64,000 bases of DNA from Bifidobacterium pullorum subsp. gallinarum. Its GTDB lineage: Bacteria; Actinomycetota; Actinomycetes; Actinomycetales; Bifidobacteriaceae. Positions within the stretch are counted from its first letter, which is position 1. The number at the start of each line of letters is the position of its first letter. Under the pieces are notes generated by a model, which was not told the DNA's origin, ran no database searches, and worked only from the letters and a program-made list of their open reading frames with translations. The stretch lies in assembly GCF_000741215.1 (NCBI RefSeq), contig NZ_JGYX01000002.1:248001-312000 (forward strand), in the 5' to 3' direction. The position numbers and the translations under genes were made by a program. This document shows positions 25,125 through 34,847 of the stretch, piece after piece.

Positions 25125-25337
25125 GCCGTGTTCCCTCGTGTTCCTCTTGACGATGCAAACTCCACTCATTCTAGGCGAACGGGGCAACCGGGGACAGCGG
25201 CCCCACTGTCCACTTTACGTTGCAATCCAGCAACAGCGCAAAAGTCGCCTCACGTCAACCGCCAAACGCCGAATCAAACAGTTCAGAGTTCGCGATGCAA
25301 ACACTCACATCCTCCTAGGAAGAACACTTCACGAACT

Positions 25338-25353
25338 TGGCAGCAGCGTAAGT
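25338..25353 (+). repeat. hsdS inversion repeat, N-proximal (silent copy)
   Basis: TGGCAGCAGCGTAAGT, encoding WQQRK(S/L/Y), occurs here, at 25914-25929, and inverted at 27930-27945 and 28533-28548. It marks the upstream edge of each recognition-domain module. Confidence 0.85.
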
Positions 25354-25806
25354 ATTCGGACTACTTAATCGAGAGCAATATTCCGGGGCACGATGGTTCT
25401 GAAGCGAATAAACTAACAGTAAAACTGTGGGGCAAAGGCGTGGTCGAGAAAGAGACGGTGACAGCAGGCAGCAATGCAACGAAATATTATATTCGGCATA
25501 CCGGGCAACTGATGTATGGGAAGCTAGATTTCCTTCATGCGGCTTTTGGATTAGTGCCACCCGAACTTGACGGGTACGAGTCCACAGCGGATTCGCCAGC
25601 CTTTGACATTTTACCATCTGCTGATCCGAATTTCATTTTAATGACATGCCTCAGCAAACATACTTATTTATATCAAGGTAATCTTGCGGACGGTTCAAGA
25701 AAAGCAAAGCGAGTTCATGTTCCTACGTTTTTGGATATGTCCCTTAATATCCCAAATATTGAAGAACAATATCGCATTGTTTTGTTTCTCCATACAATTG
25801 ACAAGC

Positions 25807-25930
25807 TTATCGCTGCCGCCAAGAAAAAGGCCGACCTGCTCAAACTCAAGAAACGCTACTATTTGCAGGCCATCTTCAGCCAGCAACTCCGCTTCAAAGG
25901 ATTCACAGAACCCTGGCAGCAGCGTAAGTT
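25807..25930 (+). repeat. hsdS inversion repeat, central (silent copy)
   Basis: 124 bases are an inverted copy of 27929-28052 with only two mismatches by eye (GAA/GAG and CCC/CCA codons). It encodes the central spacer helix and the start of the second recognition domain, the classical crossover site of phase-variable hsdS genes. Confidence 0.9.
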
Positions 25931-26468
25931 AGGGGATTTACTCAAATTTGAGCGGCCAGATCGTTATATCGAGCCCGATGGAGACTATTTATCCGAGGGA
26001 ACCACACCGGTGCTTACTGCGAACAAAGGATTCGTGTTGGGGTATACCAATAACTCCGAAGGGATATATGACAAAGGAGCATGCATTATATTCGACGATT
26101 TCACTCTCGATCGCAAATTAGTGCGGCGTCCGTTCAAAGTACGGTCTTCAGCGATCAAGATTTTGACCGCGAATCCGTCCATGGATTTGTATTTCATATT
26201 TGAGCTACTCGAATTCCAGAAATTCCCCTCTCTTGGTCATGCGCGTCATTATATATCCGTGGTTGAACCATGGCGCGCACCCGTTCCGGATTGCTCCGAA
26301 CAGACCCACATCGGTGAGATGTTCCGTATGATGGACGATCTTATTGTTGCCGTGACGCGAAAGATCGAGTTGCTTGAGCGGCGAAAGACCGCTTACCTGC
26401 AACGTTTGTTCGTATGAGGTTTAGCCTGTTTCCACTGTCGCCGTGTGGGTGACGGTGGAAAGGTAATC

Positions 26469-27392
26469 ATGCATAAGAACCAGTATCTGCCGACGTACTT
26501 CCATAACTGGATGGAGATGTACAAGAAAGGAGCGGTGACTGATATCACCTTCCGTAAATACGAGCTGACATACCAGCATCTGTTGAAGCTTGCGCCCAGA
26601 TTGTCTCTGGGCAGCATCACGCGAATCGAATATCAGCAGCTACTCAATGTCTTCGCGGAAGACCATGAGCGCCAGACAGTCATGGATTTCCACCATCAGG
26701 TCAAGGCTGCTCTGCTTGATGCGGTGGAGGAAGGCGTCATCCCACGGGATCCCACGCGCAAGGTCGTGATCAAGGGAACCGTGTCTCGAAAGCATAAACC
26801 CAAATTCCTCAACCAGCACGAACTGCAGAAGTTTCTAGACCAACTGGAACTACGTGGAGTTCCCAACGTCGATTATTTGCTGTTGCTAATTGCAAAGACT
26901 GGACTGCGTTTCGCGGAAGCCCTTGCCGTCACACCGCAGGACGTCGACTTCCATAGGCAAATGCTCAATGTCAGTAAGACCTGGAGCTACAAGGATTCCT
27001 TCGGACGTTTCGCCAAGACAAAGAACAAATCTTCCAACAGGAAGATTCGGATCGATTGGATGCTGTGCATGCAACTCAAACAGCTATCCGAAGGGCGTCC
27101 CGAAGACAAACCGCTGTTCATACACGAGGGGAAACGTATCTACAACTCCACGGTCAACGACCGGCTCGCCCGACTCTGTGCACAGGCCGACGTTCCTGTA
27201 ATCTCCGTCCACGGATTGAGACACACACATGCCTCGCTGCTGCTTTACGCGGGAGTTTCCGTTGCATCGGTGGCACGACGCCTCGGTCATGCCAACATGA
27301 GCACCACGCAAAGCACCTACCTGCACATCATCAAAGAACTGGAAAACCAAGACAATGACCGTGTGATGCAATTCCTCAGCACATTACAGTAA
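26469..27392 (+). CDS. Tyrosine recombinase, probable hsdS invertase
   Basis: The 307-residue protein has an N-terminal SAM-like domain (YLPTYFHNWMEMYKKGAV..) and the integrase catalytic domain with Arg in KTGLRFAEALAV, HGLRHTHASLLL, and RLGHANMSTTQSTYLH ending in the Tyr nucleophile. It sits between two oppositely oriented hsdS copies, an arrangement known from phase-variable type I systems in Gram-positive bacteria where such recombinases invert hsdS segments. The ATG at 26469 follows GGAAAGG. No phage genes or att sites adjoin it, so integration of a prophage is unlikely to be its task. Confidence 0.88.
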   Translation: MHKNQYLPTYFHNWMEMYKKGAVTDITFRKYELTYQHLLKLAPRLSLGSITRIEYQQLLNVFAEDHERQTVMDFHHQVKAALLDAVEEGVIPRDPTRKVVIKGTVSRKHKPKFLNQHELQKFLDQLELRGVPNVDYLLLLIAKTGLRFAEALAVTPQDVDFHRQMLNVSKTWSYKDSFGRFAKTKNKSSNRKIRIDWMLCMQLKQLSEGRPEDKPLFIHEGKRIYNSTVNDRLARLCAQADVPVISVHGLRHTHASLLLYAGVSVASVARRLGHANMSTTQSTYLHIIKELENQDNDRVMQFLSTLQ

Positions 27393-27405
27393 TTAGGCAA
27401 TTGCT

Positions 27406-28677
27406 TTACACAAATAGTTGTTGGAGATAATATGACTTTATCTTCTGCAAATCTTCAGCTTTCTTCTTGACAAGAGCAGTTAGCTCATCATTTAGAACGA
27501 GGAATTCGCTTATCCGCTCCTGTTCGGCCAATGAAGGTATTGTTACTCGAATTTCCGAAAGGAGCGGATACTTCAGATTCCACGTATCGGAAGTTAACCC
27601 TTGCGAATAACGTTGGAACAAATGAAGCATCCTTACCAGCTTGAACATCTGAGCGAAGAAGGAGGACGAAACTTCTGAACTCGGGATAAGTACGGTATAT
27701 GCCGGACTCAGGATTCCGGAATAGGGAGATACACCACTTGCCCCTTGCCACATCCGCATTGTGTTATATGCGATGTCACCTGTCTTCACTTGCTTGTAAT
27801 TCGATTTATCCTCGCTGGAATTATCTTTACGTTCAAGCGAAGAAGCTGGTACGACTCCATTGGTAATGGTGACGGATATAAGTTCACCTTGGTTACTTCG
27901 TTCAGACCTTTCCTTGAATAGTTCTCCCAACTTACGCTGCTGCCATGGCTCTGTGAATCCTTTGAAGCGGAGTTGCTGGCTGAAGATGGCCTGCAAATAG
28001 TAGCGTTTCTTGAGTTTGAGCAGGTCGGCCTTTTTCTTGGCGGCAGCGATAAAATCATCCAACACGCGAAAGAACTCTCCAATGCGAATTTGTTCGCTTA
28101 ATGAAGGGAAAGTTGAAATCAGCTCCATAACCTTCTTTTTTGAGATATTGAATCGAGATATTCCTTGTGCAAGAAGCTGAATTTTGGATCTGAATTGCGG
28201 AGAACGTAATGAATAGGCCATGAAGATTGAATTATGATTGGCGGTCATTCGATAACCGAAGCAGAAGCTGTTAAGGTACAAGTTGTCTTGTGCGCCAAGC
28301 CATAAAGAAGTCATTCCGACGTCTTCGGGAGTTTCTGAACTTGCAGTAAAAAATATATCACCTGTAATAACTTTATGTTGTTTGTCATCTATTTCAACGG
28401 CCTCAATCCCATAGCAATCTGCTATTGGATTTGAAAATACATTAAGATAGGTGACGAAATATGCACTTCCATGTCCAAAATCCGATTTATTTTTCCCAGA
28501 CAAGCCCGAATACGTAAAACCAAGCTCTCCCAACTTACGCTGCTGCCAAGGGTCAGCAAAGCCTTTGAAACGGAGTTTCGGCTGCAATATCTTCCCTTGC
28601 GGGAGCTTTCGCTGCATTTCAGCGTTCAGCATGCCATCGTCGTTCATATCGTCGCTCTTTGTAGATTGGTTGCTCAT
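27406..28677 (-). CDS. hsdS: Type I restriction-modification specificity subunit HsdS (expressed copy)
   Basis: HsdS chooses the bipartite DNA target for the HsdM/HsdR complex. The 423-residue protein has a short leader, WQQRK repeat (44-48), recognition domain 1 (about 50-205), a central conserved helix (209-249, identical in sequence to the silent cassette), recognition domain 2 (about 250-395) and a C-terminal helix ending YYLQQLFV. CGGAG precedes the ATG at 28677. It is the last gene of the hsdR-hsdM-DUF3644-hsdS unit. Inversion with the silent cassette would replace either or both recognition domains without altering its start. Confidence 0.93.
   Translation of the reverse strand: MSNQSTKSDDMNDDGMLNAEMQRKLPQGKILQPKLRFKGFADPWQQRKLGELGFTYSGLSGKNKSDFGHGSAYFVTYLNVFSNPIADCYGIEAVEIDDKQHKVITGDIFFTASSETPEDVGMTSLWLGAQDNLYLNSFCFGYRMTANHNSIFMAYSLRSPQFRSKIQLLAQGISRFNISKKKVMELISTFPSLSEQIRIGEFFRVLDDFIAAAKKKADLLKLKKRYYLQAIFSQQLRFKGFTEPWQQRKLGELFKERSERSNQGELISVTITNGVVPASSLERKDNSSEDKSNYKQVKTGDIAYNTMRMWQGASGVSPYSGILSPAYTVLIPSSEVSSSFFAQMFKLVRMLHLFQRYSQGLTSDTWNLKYPLLSEIRVTIPSLAEQERISEFLVLNDELTALVKKKAEDLQKIKSYYLQQLFV
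27929..28052 (-). repeat. hsdS inversion repeat, central (expressed copy)
   Basis: Inverted partner of 25807-25930 inside the expressed hsdS; it includes the 16-base core at 27930-27945. Confidence 0.9.
28533..28548 (-). repeat. hsdS inversion repeat, N-proximal (expressed copy)
   Basis: Inverted copy of TGGCAGCAGCGTAAGT, at codons for WQQRK just before recognition domain 1 of the expressed hsdS; partner of 25338-25353. Confidence 0.85.
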
Positions 28678-28764: not shown

Positions 28765-29778
28765 CTATGCTCCTGGGGTTATCTGCCTCTTAAGGCTCCC
28801 GATGATTTCATCGGGAGCCTTTACGATTTCTCCGACGATGAAATCAATCATATGCTGCGAATAGGTCCATCGCGGTGCCTCGTCGCCGATTACATACTTG
28901 TATGCATAACGTTCATCGCTTTTCAAATCATAGAACCTGATGAACAGCTGAAGCGTATAGCTGTTGAATTCGGTATGTTCCCTTCCTCCCGATACATAGT
29001 GCATGACAGTTCCGGAAGCCGCCAATCTAGTATTCACTGCGTCGATGACGTTATGGTACGTATAACGATGTGTATCGGCAGGATTTTTGATGTCTTTCAC
29101 TATTGCAACGGGGTTCGCGGATTCTTTTTCCACGCGCACAGTGAAATCGGCATCTTTCTTGCTTCGGACAATGTATAGGTTCTGCCGTACCGGTATGGTG
29201 AATCTATCGGATGCTGTCTGTTCCTGATCAACATTGATGGCATTGGCTTGCCTGATGAATCGCTCAGCAATCTCAGCGGGATACTTCAGTCGAATCTGCT
29301 CATTGGTTAACGGCTCAGCCGTAGCCGACAACATAAGGAAATTCTGCTGTATGTAATCGGAAATCTCCCGTTTATGAAAACGATTTAATTCTCCAGCGAA
29401 ATTCAATACGCACGCTTGGAACAGCGGCGCATATGCCGCTTCATAATCTTCAGTAATGAAATGTGTACTGGTATTGCGCAGTTCGATGATTCGTTCCAGA
29501 TTGAGGCGCAGAGGCTGTCGTTTATCCGTATAAATACGGCGAATCACCTCATTTACCGACAACGTGCGTTCGGGGTTATCGCGATAATAAATCGGCTCAC
29601 CACGTTGTATCAGTTCTGCTTTCAACATCAGTTCCCATGCGTTGATAATGAAGAACGAGAATCCTTCAACGCGGTATCTGATTGTGGGTTTGTTATAAAT
29701 TTCCAAACCCACGAGAAATGCCTCGATACTTTTATCGACAAGTTTGCCTATGATCTCTTGTTCACTAAGCACAGGCAT
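28765..29778 (-). CDS. DUF3644 domain-containing protein in the type I RM operon
   Basis: The 337-residue product begins with LVDKSIEAFLVGLEIYNKPT and RYRVEGFSFFIINAWELMLKAELI, the signature of DUF3644. Its function is unknown; members are often found next to restriction or abortive-infection genes. Motifs suggest a helical N-terminal half with a RNTSTHF element like RnlA/HEPN-type R-x4-6-H patterns, which would be compatible with RNase activity, but this is only a hint. The ATG at 29778 lies inside the last codons of hsdM (14-base overlap), so it is co-translated with the methylase. hsdS follows 87 bases downstream. Confidence 0.75.
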   Translation of the reverse strand: MPVLSEQEIIGKLVDKSIEAFLVGLEIYNKPTIRYRVEGFSFFIINAWELMLKAELIQRGEPIYYRDNPERTLSVNEVIRRIYTDKRQPLRLNLERIIELRNTSTHFITEDYEAAYAPLFQACVLNFAGELNRFHKREISDYIQQNFLMLSATAEPLTNEQIRLKYPAEIAERFIRQANAINVDQEQTASDRFTIPVRQNLYIVRSKKDADFTVRVEKESANPVAIVKDIKNPADTHRYTYHNVIDAVNTRLAASGTVMHYVSGGREHTEFNSYTLQLFIRFYDLKSDERYAYKYVIGDEAPRWTYSQHMIDFIVGEIVKAPDEIIGSLKRQITPGA

Positions 29779-31420
29779 CCCCTTCCGTTGGCACCAAATC
29801 AGCCACCATGGCGTCGAATTGCGCTTGTAGCCGCGCAATTTCCGCATCGACTTCGGCAAGCTGACGATTCACTTCATCAATATCGATGGGCTCCTCTTCC
29901 TCGAAGGTGTCGACGTACCGCGGAATGTTGAGGTTGTATTCGTTCTCCTTGATCTCGTCTGGCGAAGCGACATGCGCGTACTTGTCAACGTCCTTGCGAT
30001 TGATATAGGTTTCGAAGATCAGGTCGATGTCCTCATCGCGTAGATGATTCTGATTCTTGCCCTTTTCGAAGTGTTGCGAAGCATCGATAAACAGTATGTC
30101 TCGGATTTTCCTGTCTTTCCGGAAAACCAGCACGACGGTCGGGATCGATGTGGAATAGAACAGATTGGCGGGCAATCCGATCACGGCATCGAGATAGTTC
30201 TTCTCGATCAACGCTTTACGAATGACCCCTTCAGCCGCGCCACGGAACAGGACTCCATGCGGCAGGACAATCGCCATACGACCGGAATCCTTGAGATGGT
30301 AGACACAGTGCTCCACAAACGCGAAATCAGCTTTCGACTTTGGCGCAAGCTTACCAAAGTCCTTAAAACGCGGGTCCTTCAGCTTGGTCTCGGTGTTGTC
30401 CCAATGCTGAGAATACGGAGGATTAGCGACTACGGCATCGAATGCCCGGGGATGATCAATACCATTCTCATCGACGCCATCCGGCCAATCCTGTTCCAAT
30501 GTATCCGCATTGCGCAGCTTCATGTACTTGTAGTCAACGCCGTGCATCATGAGATTCATTCGTGCCAAGTTGTAGGTCGTACGATTCAGTTCCTGGCCAT
30601 GGAATCGGACCCGCCCCTCACGCTCAGAACCCGGCAGTTCCTTCTGTACGGTCAACAACAACGAACCCGAGCCGCAGGTCGGGTCATACACGCTGAAATC
30701 CTTGTTCGTATCAAGAATGACATCCGCACCTTCGGAGGTTGGATCCGCGTAGGTCACCAATTTGGCCAGTACACGGGACACTTCGTGCGGCGTATAGAAT
30801 TCACCAGCCTTCTTACCGGAATTGCTGGCGAACTGCGCAATAAGGTACTCGTAGACATCGCCGAGAATATCGTGGCCGGATTCATCCTTGAAGTCGATGG
30901 AGTCCACCTTCTCCGCCAAGTTGGACAGACTCTTGGCACGAGCCGCCGTGGAGTTGCCCAGCGAGGAATCAGCGAGATTGATGTCGGAGAACACCTCTCG
31001 GAAATCTTTCTCTGCAGTGGCGTTCAACTCGGCGTTCTGCCGGAACGAATCGAACATCGCCTGAAAATAGTCGGGGCGAAGAGACTGGTCACGAATCCTG
31101 GCTATCAAAGACGCCCATGTGTATTCCGGATCAATGACGTATCCAAGGCTTTGAGAGATGTCCTCGCGCCAAGCCTCAATACCATCCGATTGTGTCTGAC
31201 GAGCATATGCGTCATTAAGCGTCTCACCCTCATAGGTCTCGATGACATTCTGGTTCCTCAAATCCTCCAGATACATCTCCTGTCGTTCGGACAAATAACG
31301 ATAGAAAATGAATCCGAGGATGTAATCGCGAAACTCGTCAGCGGACATCTTGCCGCGCAGATCGTTCGCCATCGCCCACAACTGAGATGTGAGCTGCCTT
31401 GCCGTATTCTGTTCTGCCAT
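29765..31420 (-). CDS. hsdM: Type I restriction-modification DNA methyltransferase HsdM
   Basis: HsdM methylates adenine using S-adenosylmethionine. The 551-residue protein has the N-terminal helical HsdM domain (LWAMANDLRGKMSADEFRDYIL), GEFYTPHEVSRVLAKL (207-222), the AdoMet motif DPTCGSGS (246-253) and catalytic NPPY (333-336). These features mark N6-adenine methylation. It starts 14 bases after hsdR and overlaps the DUF3644 gene. The C-terminal coiled segment (DEVNRQLAEVDAEIARLQAQF) should contact HsdS. Confidence 0.96.
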   Translation of the reverse strand: MAEQNTARQLTSQLWAMANDLRGKMSADEFRDYILGFIFYRYLSERQEMYLEDLRNQNVIETYEGETLNDAYARQTQSDGIEAWREDISQSLGYVIDPEYTWASLIARIRDQSLRPDYFQAMFDSFRQNAELNATAEKDFREVFSDINLADSSLGNSTAARAKSLSNLAEKVDSIDFKDESGHDILGDVYEYLIAQFASNSGKKAGEFYTPHEVSRVLAKLVTYADPTSEGADVILDTNKDFSVYDPTCGSGSLLLTVQKELPGSEREGRVRFHGQELNRTTYNLARMNLMMHGVDYKYMKLRNADTLEQDWPDGVDENGIDHPRAFDAVVANPPYSQHWDNTETKLKDPRFKDFGKLAPKSKADFAFVEHCVYHLKDSGRMAIVLPHGVLFRGAAEGVIRKALIEKNYLDAVIGLPANLFYSTSIPTVVLVFRKDRKIRDILFIDASQHFEKGKNQNHLRDEDIDLIFETYINRKDVDKYAHVASPDEIKENEYNLNIPRYVDTFEEEEPIDIDEVNRQLAEVDAEIARLQAQFDAMVADLVPTEGDACA

Positions 31421-31434
31421 GGGATAATTCTTTC

Positions 31435-34400
31435 TCAGTAATGGGATACTACATAATCGGCAAACTCATACAAAGCCTGCCGAAGGGAATTACGGTACTT
31501 AATCGGGCTTAGTCTGCGAATCTCCTCATCCTGCGCATCCTGCTGATAGAGACGTTCCGCAACGGCATCCGCCAATAACTGAGACAATTCTCCGCCATCC
31601 GCAAGATCCTCCTTATGCAGGATATGCCGGTCCAGCATCCTGTCGATCAGCAGCTTGGCCGTTGCCACATCAACCAACCCCCATTTTTCGCGGAACCGCA
31701 ATGAGGCCTGCCGACGGTCCCGTGCCGTATGGCCTCGGACAATCTCCGAGACCGATTCCGGGACCACTGGATACGTGACGCCTTCAAGCTCTCCGACTTC
31801 CATTGCCTCATCAGCCGTAGCCACCATCTGATCAGCCAAACGGCGATCCTCAAGTTGATCAGTCGCACGTTTGAAGTTGTCATACGTTGCCCGAACAGTT
31901 GCAGCACCCTCCTTAACCTCGTTCAGCAATTTAGCCAACAGCTCGTTGATGTAATCGTAATTAATGCGAATCTCGGCGATATGCTCCACGCCGAAATCCA
32001 GCATCGATACATCAATCAGGCTTTTCCGCTCTTCGGCAAGCTTTTTCAGTTCGCTACGCGCCGGACCATTCAACCATTTTTCCTGGTCATCGGACAGCTT
32101 GAGTTCTTTCAATAACTGTTCCGGCTGATCGTAATCGAATTCGGTATATTGTTTAAGCTGTGAGACCCCGCTATTGAACCGACTGATCAGATTGGCCATT
32201 TCCTGCTGTTCGTTTTCACTCGCCGGCAGTACGGTAAACCCATCCGATAGTTCGCGCAGATTCTCGACAATCTGTTTGGTGTTCTCCTTCACCTCGCTGA
32301 ATGGTTTGGCAAGGATGCCACTATCCTGCAGGTCCTTGAACGAATCCTGCACCATCGCCGAATCCCGATTCGCGTAAATGCTCAGTGCCTCATCCATCAA
32401 TCTCTTCGAGGTTTCCGGCCAGCGGTAGTTGACAATATGGCCCCACGGCTTAGCATGCATGTCCTGAATGCGATTCGTACGTGAATATGCCTGAATCAAA
32501 TTGGCTCCGGCCAGCGTGCGATCCACGTACAACGTATTCACGTTGGGCGCATCATATCCGGTAAGCAACTGATCGATCACAATGACGATATCCAGTTTCT
32601 CGCCTTCGGCCTCGCCACGCAGACGGTCCATGACATCGTTGAAATACTCCCCTACGGTCCGATCGTCAAACGATGTGCCAAATGCCGTGTTGTACGCCAT
32701 CATGGCAGCCCGCAATCCACGGTTCTTATCCAATTGATACTCGGAATTATCCGTACCATAGGAAAACGTCAAGGCGATATTGAGAGGACGCTTCCCCTCT
32801 CCAATCAATTGTTCGTTTCGCCTCTGAAACTCCTCGAAATACTGTATCGCCATTGGTGCAGACGATTTCCCGCCACCGACATGTGTGGTCAGAATCGCGC
32901 TATACCGCCCCTCCTTCGATCGGTTGCGCCAATGAACGACAATGTCATCCACAACCTGCTCAACATGTTTCTGGTTATTGTCATATACGCCGGAATCGAT
33001 ATATTTGTCCACTTCCTCGGGACTCATGCGCGCCACTTTGCGGCTGATGTCCTTATCGGACCAGTGTGGATACCGTTGCCTCAACAAATCAGGCAGCAAT
33101 TGACCAGTGATTTCCGTATTGGGAATCGTATTCTCAAAATCTACGTTGAATCCCAATACGTTCCTGTCAGCTATCGCCTCACGAATGGTATATGCATGAA
33201 TCAGATCGCCGAATGCGGCATGCGTCATATCACCCTCAAACGCCGGAGTACCCGTGTACCCAACCCATGCCGACCGCGGGAAAGCCTTTTTGATACGCTT
33301 GAGCATCTCTCCGTTCGTGGAACGATGTGCCTCATCCACGACGAACACGAAATTCATATCCGGTGCTTTGAATGAGTCACGCTTGCACAAGCGATCCAAC
33401 TTCTGAATGGATGTCACCACAATCGAGTTGTTCCGGCTGCGACTACGCAGTTTAGCTCGCAATACACCGGTGTTCGCGGTCTCCGAAACCACACCGGCAT
33501 TGTCCTCATCGGCATCGGGATCATAGGCGGAATACTTCTCGAACGTCTGTCTCGTCAAAGCCACACGATCGACCACGAACACCACTTTGTCCACATTGGG
33601 CAAGCGGGAGGCCAACCATGCTGTCTTAAAACTGCTGATCGTCTTTCCCGATCCGGTGGTATGCCAGATATACCCGGATTCCTGCGCATCCGTACCAAAT
33701 ACGTGAGTACGCAACCGTTCGATTACACGACGAGTGGCATATACCTGATACGGGCGCATGACGATAAGATTCTTATGCTTCGGGTCTCCATCCAAAATCA
33801 TGTAGCTCGTTGACATCTGATGAGCCATCGGAATCGACAACATCAGATCCGCAAATTCACGCCAATCCCAAACCGGTTTGCTGTCCTCCTCCCGTTGCCA
33901 GTGAAATGCAAACGCCGGATTGAACGAATCAGCATCCGTATTTGCCATGTACAACGCCTGATACGGAGTCATACCGACCAGGATCTGCACTGTCGAATAA
34001 ATGTCATGAAACAATCCCTCATCAATATACTGGCGGATCTGATTCAGTCCCTCCATAGCGTCGTGCTTGTCATACTTCTCCTCGATATGGATGATTGGCA
34101 GACCGTTGATCAGCAATGTCGTATCGAATCGGCGATTTTTACGTCCCGCCATAACATGCGGTCTCTCGATTTGATTGACGATCTGATACACCGTGTTTCC
34201 AGCGCCAACCTGAGCCTGATCGAACACGGTCAGAAATATATGGTTCCCGCCAGTACCATCCTCTGCCTCGTCCCGATCAACCTCGATCTGAGTCACACCG
34301 TTCAGACCATACAGCCAACAGCCCGCTTCATAAGGAGAGCGTAGGCCACAGATCACAGCTTTGACCTGGGCAAACTCGGTGTCCGTCAGAGGTCGCCCAC

Positions 34401-34557
34401 CAAGTTTATCCGCGTTGTTCCGTTCGAGAATTGCCCGGAAATTAGCCCATAACGCTGGAATCGTCTTAATGGAAGGCTCATACTTCCATTGCTTTGACCC
34501 ACCAATCCTCTCCAGATGATGGATCAGTTCATTCTCAAAATCCAGCTCACCAGCCAT
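31435..34557 (-). CDS. hsdR: Type I restriction endonuclease subunit HsdR
   Basis: HsdR translocates and cleaves DNA. The 1040-residue protein has the N-terminal PD-(D/E)xK nuclease (RFDTTLLINGLPIIHIEEKYD, residues 143-163), the SF2 motor with TTGSGKT (300-306) and DEAH (408-411), helicase motifs VGYTGTPAF and DQLLTGYDAP, and a C-terminal helical region that binds HsdM. The ATG at 34557 lies after an AAGGGATGG site; a GTG at 34581 is less likely. It is the first gene of the operon, so expression probably starts in the AT-rich gap upstream. Confidence 0.95.
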   Translation of the reverse strand: MAGELDFENELIHHLERIGGSKQWKYEPSIKTIPALWANFRAILERNNADKLGGRPLTDTEFAQVKAVICGLRSPYEAGCWLYGLNGVTQIEVDRDEAEDGTGGNHIFLTVFDQAQVGAGNTVYQIVNQIERPHVMAGRKNRRFDTTLLINGLPIIHIEEKYDKHDAMEGLNQIRQYIDEGLFHDIYSTVQILVGMTPYQALYMANTDADSFNPAFAFHWQREEDSKPVWDWREFADLMLSIPMAHQMSTSYMILDGDPKHKNLIVMRPYQVYATRRVIERLRTHVFGTDAQESGYIWHTTGSGKTISSFKTAWLASRLPNVDKVVFVVDRVALTRQTFEKYSAYDPDADEDNAGVVSETANTGVLRAKLRSRSRNNSIVVTSIQKLDRLCKRDSFKAPDMNFVFVVDEAHRSTNGEMLKRIKKAFPRSAWVGYTGTPAFEGDMTHAAFGDLIHAYTIREAIADRNVLGFNVDFENTIPNTEITGQLLPDLLRQRYPHWSDKDISRKVARMSPEEVDKYIDSGVYDNNQKHVEQVVDDIVVHWRNRSKEGRYSAILTTHVGGGKSSAPMAIQYFEEFQRRNEQLIGEGKRPLNIALTFSYGTDNSEYQLDKNRGLRAAMMAYNTAFGTSFDDRTVGEYFNDVMDRLRGEAEGEKLDIVIVIDQLLTGYDAPNVNTLYVDRTLAGANLIQAYSRTNRIQDMHAKPWGHIVNYRWPETSKRLMDEALSIYANRDSAMVQDSFKDLQDSGILAKPFSEVKENTKQIVENLRELSDGFTVLPASENEQQEMANLISRFNSGVSQLKQYTEFDYDQPEQLLKELKLSDDQEKWLNGPARSELKKLAEERKSLIDVSMLDFGVEHIAEIRINYDYINELLAKLLNEVKEGAATVRATYDNFKRATDQLEDRRLADQMVATADEAMEVGELEGVTYPVVPESVSEIVRGHTARDRRQASLRFREKWGLVDVATAKLLIDRMLDRHILHKEDLADGGELSQLLADAVAERLYQQDAQDEEIRRLSPIKYRNSLRQALYEFADYVVSHY

Positions 34558-34847
34558 ATATGCCAACCATCCCTTCACCACAGCGTAAGGCTGTAATCAT
34601 TGTACGCATACAAGAAGGCCGCAGAACCGTTGGCATATAAATTCTCAATCGCATGTCGGAGATAACTCAAACAGTGCGTCAAACACTCTCGATAATTCCG
34701 ACGTCGGCCGCAAAGAATTGAACGAGACGGAAACATGATGCTGAACTGAGTCGAGGATGCCACGGCATGCATACGCAAAGACCTCCGAACGGACTACGAT
34801 GGGATGCGGTATATCCGCATACGCATCATCAACGAGGAGTCTCACCT
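34558..34847. other. Junction between the restriction island and pepP
   Basis: The 290 bases hold a TACAAT -10-like element for hsdR on the minus strand (34604-34599), the small inverted repeat ATGCGG-tatat-CCGCAT (34804-34820) and the pepP ribosome site. Two short minus-strand frames (about 34645-34845 and 34575-34778) read into each other in different registers and might be the remnant of a gene, but no family was recognised. Confidence 0.4.

Follow-up and report, generated by a model that had tools for sequence, protein, structure and literature searches.

A type I restriction-modification locus of Bifidobacterium pullorum subsp. gallinarum that very probably switches specificity by inversion between four core sites

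Can a bifidobacterial type I restriction-modification system exchange its recognition domains by DNA inversion? The question is raised by a locus of Bifidobacterium pullorum subsp. gallinarum, analysed here within a window of 64,000 nucleotides (assembly GCF_000741215.1, contig NZ_JGYX01000002.1, positions 248,001 to 312,000), in which a plus-strand hsdS cassette and a minus-strand operon hsdS flank a tyrosine recombinase. This arrangement had been proposed from the sequence alone, and gene calls and profile matches agree with it (Table 1). The anatomy of the repeats, the restriction of the cores to this locus in the genome and the rearrangements found in relatives together make it very probable that the locus is an inverting type I system, one whose recombinase is proposed to act on four short cores.

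Architecture of the locus and its repeats

The operon hsdR-hsdM-DUF3644-hsdS is contiguous on one strand, with hsdS last and presumed to be expressed; the latter is organized as a 43-aa N-terminus, a core, recognition domain (TRD) A1, a central region, another core, TRD A2 and the C-terminus. Translation of the recombinase probably begins at ATG 26469 rather than at GTG 26445, from which the frame is open, and its product is XerC/XerA-like, yet far under the equivalog cut-offs. The DUF3644/EC042_2821 gene, whose exact start is uncertain, lies between hsdM, which it overlaps, and hsdS. It encodes a PDC-S19 candidate defence protein with no relative in the other bifidobacterial loci, and this part of the window has 67-70% DNA identity to Streptococcus satellite phages and one Streptococcus phage. 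Since the island is G+C-poor (hsdS 43-46%, recombinase 52%, hsdM 52%) beside the neighbouring folC at 67%, its composition suggests acquisition from elsewhere. A second type I hsdS is encoded in the genome, apart from the locus (G000:C7:51072-52145).

Table 1. Coordinates of the genes, inverted repeats and core copies of the locus within the window
Feature	Position	Strand	Remarks
Silent hsdS cassette (TRD S1, central conserved region, TRD S2, C-terminus)	25338-26417	+	Pfam Methylase_S 2.9e-8; PADLOC Specificity_I 5.7e-39
Tyrosine recombinase, 307 aa	26469-27392	+	Pfam Phage_integrase 1.6e-23; R-K-HxxR-H-Y residues present by inspection
Operon hsdS, 423 aa	27406-28677	-	Pfam Methylase_S 1.4e-12; PADLOC Specificity_I 3e-74
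DUF3644/EC042_2821 restriction-endonuclease-like protein (PADLOC PDC-S19)	28765-29859	-	Pfam 1.4e-55 and 1.3e-34; PADLOC 2.2e-140
hsdM, type I methyltransferase	29765-31420	-	TIGR00497 1.6e-122, above cut-off
hsdR, type I restriction subunit	31435-34581	-	TIGR00348 1.2e-91, above cut-off
Inner inverted repeat, left arm	25807-25930	+	Central conserved region of silent cassette
Inner inverted repeat, right arm	27929-28052	-	Central conserved region of operon hsdS; 124 bp, 2 mismatches
Outer inverted repeat, left arm	25336-25353	+	18 bp
Outer inverted repeat, right arm	28533-28550	-	18 bp, 100%
Core copy 1 (outer left)	25338-25353	+	Proposed crossover segment TGGCAGC, 25338-25344 (putative placement)
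Core copy 2 (inner left)	25914-25929	+	Proposed crossover segment 25914-25920
Core copy 3 (inner right)	27930-27945	-	Proposed crossover segment 27939-27945
Core copy 4 (outer right)	28533-28548	-	Proposed crossover segment 28542-28548

The inner repeat lies, to the base, where it had been placed, and the two mismatches counted by eye are confirmed (25910 and 25913); at lower stringency its arms reach 139 nt at 95% identity (25807-25945 / 27914-28052). All four proposed copies of the 16-bp core TGGCAGCAGCGTAAGT were located; they are 100% identical, two per orientation, and sit in W-Q-Q-R-K codons at the TRD starts. The outer repeats form a perfect inverted match, for which, by our arithmetic, the expectation at an exact length of 18 bp is ~1e-4 per 3.3 kb. 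In the 2.16-Mb genome, the pattern TGGNNNCARCGKAAG has six matches, four of which are the locus cores, all with the exact 15-mer TGGCAGCAGCGTAAG; confinement of this core variant to these four places indicates that the copies change in concert.

The cassette on the plus strand begins at its core, has no HsdS N-terminal segment of its own and is preceded by sequence that is not HsdS-like. With a frame open upstream to GTG 25128, it could be imagined as a second expressed HsdS, translated for example as a fusion that begins further upstream, in which case the strain would have two specificities without switching. Against this, the upstream residues, besides not resembling HsdS, lie within the folC upstream region, and the silent cassettes of other loci likewise begin at the core, that of L058 directly after a stop codon; a second active subunit is thus extremely improbable.

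Predicted products of inversion

If the tyrosine recombinase recombines the four cores, exchange between the inner sites would swap TRD2, exchange between the outer sites would swap both TRDs, and the inner and outer exchanges in turn would swap TRD1. Inner, outer and double inversions were carried out in silico and leave hsdS open in every case: the fixed 5' end in the operon would be joined to A1-A2 (the present form, 423 aa), A1-S2 (411 aa), S1-S2 (402 aa) or S1-A2 (414 aa). The sequence-only reading had assigned the swap of domain 2 to the central repeats and that of both domains to the N-proximal ones, and the simulated forms support it. The four intact proteins would probably confer four methylation and restriction specificities.

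Identity of all four cores would allow unlike pairs to recombine too, yielding in simulation a three-TRD HsdS of 603 aa (A1-S1-S2) or a one-TRD HsdS of 210 aa (S2). The associated idea that a domain may pass in this way from position 1 to position 2 is plausible; in addition to these simulated forms, TRD homologues differ in position from one species to another, those of A1 occupying position 2 in L061, L068 and L072 and that of A2 position 1 in L028.

The assembly of the window, one assembly of one strain, contains a single configuration. This would also suit a silent cassette that is the inert remnant of a duplicated hsdS, kept similar by gene conversion and no longer inverting; however, a remnant of this kind should decay with time; the cassette still has an intact frame, as has the recombinase, all four cores are preserved, and relatives carry inverted forms, making inertness very improbable.

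In the inverting system favoured here, the invertible segment includes the recombinase gene, which starts 51 bp beyond the stop codon of S2. The gene is co-directional with the operon in the forms that have S2 as TRD2 and opposed to it in the present one, so that its orientation is set by the state of the locus, and its expression may depend on that state. In pneumococcus, expression of creX is 2.6-fold higher in the co-directional orientation (PMC6620402). For the present orientation, no recombinase promoter scored above chance, both promoter and terminator scans performing at chance level.

Core sites and rearrangements in related loci

Members of the recombinase family (E <= 1e-60) are encoded in 25 of 112 Bifidobacterium genomes, as well as in many genomes and plasmids of Firmicutes, and mostly adjoin hsdS genes that carry a common core, TGGGARCAGCGTAAG. 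In a phylogenetic tree, the recombinase of the window clusters with those from six loci of bifidobacteria (class A), to which it is 64-67% identical, and the remaining 18 bifidobacterial loci make up class B, inside which two Firmicutes sequences are nested; this topology, several deep branches of which are weak, suggests at least two acquisitions of the family. The viral collection contains distant relatives only (recombinase <=57%, HsdS <=42% identity), and no hsdS core is recognisable with the nine recombinase relatives on IMG/VR viral contigs (L139-L147, 44-57%), which were therefore left out of the comparison. On plasmids of Ligilactobacillus salivarius (L148-L155), GbpC/Spa adhesin genes adjoin a recombinase with 55% identity to that of the window, and a clean inversion of 2.1 kb, between 29-bp repeats without the hsdS core, distinguishes isolates; the family thus seems to serve surface-protein switching too. 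Considered as candidate hsdS loci, these plasmids were rejected as adhesin loci and bear on the recombinase family only.

In most related loci, a 15-bp site of mostly the common sequence marks TRD starts on both sides of the recombinase. Among bifidobacterial copies gathered by peptide motif, a procedure that leaves third codon positions free and misses sites with other peptides, the core codons are nearly invariant (K AAG 69/69, Q CAG 67/69, R CGT 63/69, E GAA 57/63), and those of several conserved residues near the core vary more. The core is just as conserved where the DNA ahead of it does not encode HsdS, as at the starts of silent cassettes. Within the seven window-like loci, core pairs are identical in 83% of cases versus 12% in shuffles (p ~5e-5), a signal that would fit recombination, recent duplication or gene conversion alike. 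Because the WEQRK motif occurs, in the loci sampled, essentially only in genomes and at places with the recombinase, recombinase-free hsdS genes offer no within-genus control for this synonymous conservation. The window departs from the common core in having CAG for GAR, so that its sites start with TGGCAG and those of most relatives with TGGGAA or TGGGAG; none of the relatives in which recombination is evident carries the CAG variant.

Is the recombinase needed for every exchange? The inner arms, which are identical over 103 bp ahead of the core, might invert by general homologous recombination, through RecA or otherwise, leaving the recombinase to the outer cores or making it dispensable altogether. 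Repeats of 18 bp are too short for efficient homologous recombination. The outer pair is of that length, yet cores are conserved and homogenised together with the recombinase across loci, and cores are retained even at sites that have no flanking homology. The pneumococcal precedent points both ways, in that long repeats invert without CreX, which is dispensable for some inversions, and a 15-bp repeat needs it (PMC6620402), whereas PsrA inverts IR1-IR3 in vitro, catalysing exchange at IR2 and IR3 as well (PMC7096588). On balance, inversion of the inner arms by homologous recombination is somewhat unlikely, and the recombinase is proposed to act on both the inner and the outer sites in this strain.

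The rearrangements expected from inversion occur in relatives with the same recombinase family, their breakpoints coinciding with the core, which supports the proposal. Between plasmids of two Enterococcus raffinosus strains (L156 and L157), whose recombinase is 59% identical to the window's, two hsdS genes have traded their TRD1 segments in inverted orientation, within flanks that are 98.7-100% identical; the breakpoint falls within ACGATTGGGAAC, because the upstream flanks stayed in place and a polymorphic position, core base 8, travelled with the TRD. Between the Bifidobacterium loci L064 and L069 (89% identical), the hsdM block is inverted and ends at cores, and two inversions between cores can explain the rearrangements that separate L064 from L065. 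The operons of L057 and L058 are 85% identical, their recombinases are opposite relative to the operon, and similarity on the operon side stops at the core. Of the seven loci of class A, four have a recombinase that converges with the operon, and in three the two are co-directional. Contig ends coincide with a core or lie <=2 bp from it at both ends of L029 and in L073, and another contig of the L029 genome ends 8 bp from one; such ends would arise if the sequenced culture contained mixed orientations, although repeats alone might produce them. In the class B loci L063-L080, cores in inverse orientation enclose a segment with hsdM, so that the methyltransferase gene and the hsdS 5' end appear to switch together between sets of TRDs.

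The E. raffinosus exchange interval overlaps ATTATGGGAA, the 10-bp sequence to which CreX-dependent recombination is tied in pneumococcus (PMC6620402) and which overlaps the first half of the core. The crossover segment presumably corresponds to the first seven core bases, TGGCAGC in the window, where all four sites have this one segment. In L057 (6185-6345) and L058 (6081-6235), read with the recombinase on the plus strand, the inner repeats contain TGGCAAGAGCGTAAG and the outer sites TGGGAGCAGCGTAAG, and the difference between them is confined to the proposed segment (TGGCAAG versus TGGGAGC). We tentatively suggest, as a possibility we hold to be rather doubtful, that the segment is a matching code embedded in HsdS codons, whereby like segments within a locus recombine and unlike ones do not: the differing inner and outer segments of L057 and L058 would keep position-1 and position-2 TRDs apart, and the single segment of the window would let TRDs change position and HsdS gain or lose a TRD.

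Known systems and significance

The closest parallels in mode of action are SpnIII/cod of Streptococcus pneumoniae (CreX/PsrA, IvrR) and a four-way switch of Streptococcus suis. SpnIII/cod has in common with the window one operon hsdS plus silent hsdS, inverted repeats of which one is short and two are longer, a tyrosine recombinase inside the segment that inverts and a recombinase orientation that depends on state (PMC6620402, PMC7096588). Its target contains TGGGAA (PMC6620402) where the window core has TGGCAGC, and it has two silent genes and six forms, compared with one silent gene and four forms in the window; the latter also differs by the extra DUF3644 gene in the operon and by its actinobacterial host. 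By analogy of layout, not of recombinase sequence, the window locus would work like SpnIII/cod. The four-way type I system of S. suis has two hsdS genes whose 5' and 3' TRDs are exchanged via inverted repeats to give four HsdS (PMC7394358), a likeness by description between systems that differ in host, genes and sites. Type I loci with duplicated hsdS in a REBASE survey also have inverted repeats between the hsdS genes, and in several a recombinase or integrase lies next to them; neither the word Bifidobacterium nor Actinobacteria occurs in the main text of the survey (PMC7394358).

Such systems were rightly said to be known in Firmicutes, and hsdS-recombinase-hsdS loci are known in Bifidobacterium longum as well: in strains NCIMB 8809 and CCUG 30698, reported in 2015 with methylome motifs, this array stands beside hsdM and hsdR as in the window, and in CCUG 30698 a hypothetical gene likewise separates hsdS from hsdM (PMC4618763). 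These loci, likened here by layout and not by sequence, differ by extra hsdS genes; the passages retrieved from that paper, whose authors note that recombination among multiple hsdS creates new specificities in other organisms, describe no inverted repeats, cores or hsdS inversion for them (PMC4618763). A text search of the literature, incomplete in coverage, returned no description of hsdS inversion in Bifidobacterium. Since such switches are known elsewhere, the window provides a clear new example and no new kind of system.

In summary, if the locus is active, a single bifidobacterial clone would comprise cells with at least four restriction and methylation specificities, and phage resistance, DNA uptake and possibly gene expression would be affected. 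DNA uptake is already recognised as a hindrance to the genetic manipulation of bifidobacteria. The recombinase family is not rare in the genus (25/112 genomes), and, thanks to the common core, these loci should be readily detected and scored in read data. Finally, comparing the inner with the outer sites points to a testable rule on which TRDs can exchange; if the matching code were true, the rules of TRD shuffling would be readable from sequence alone.
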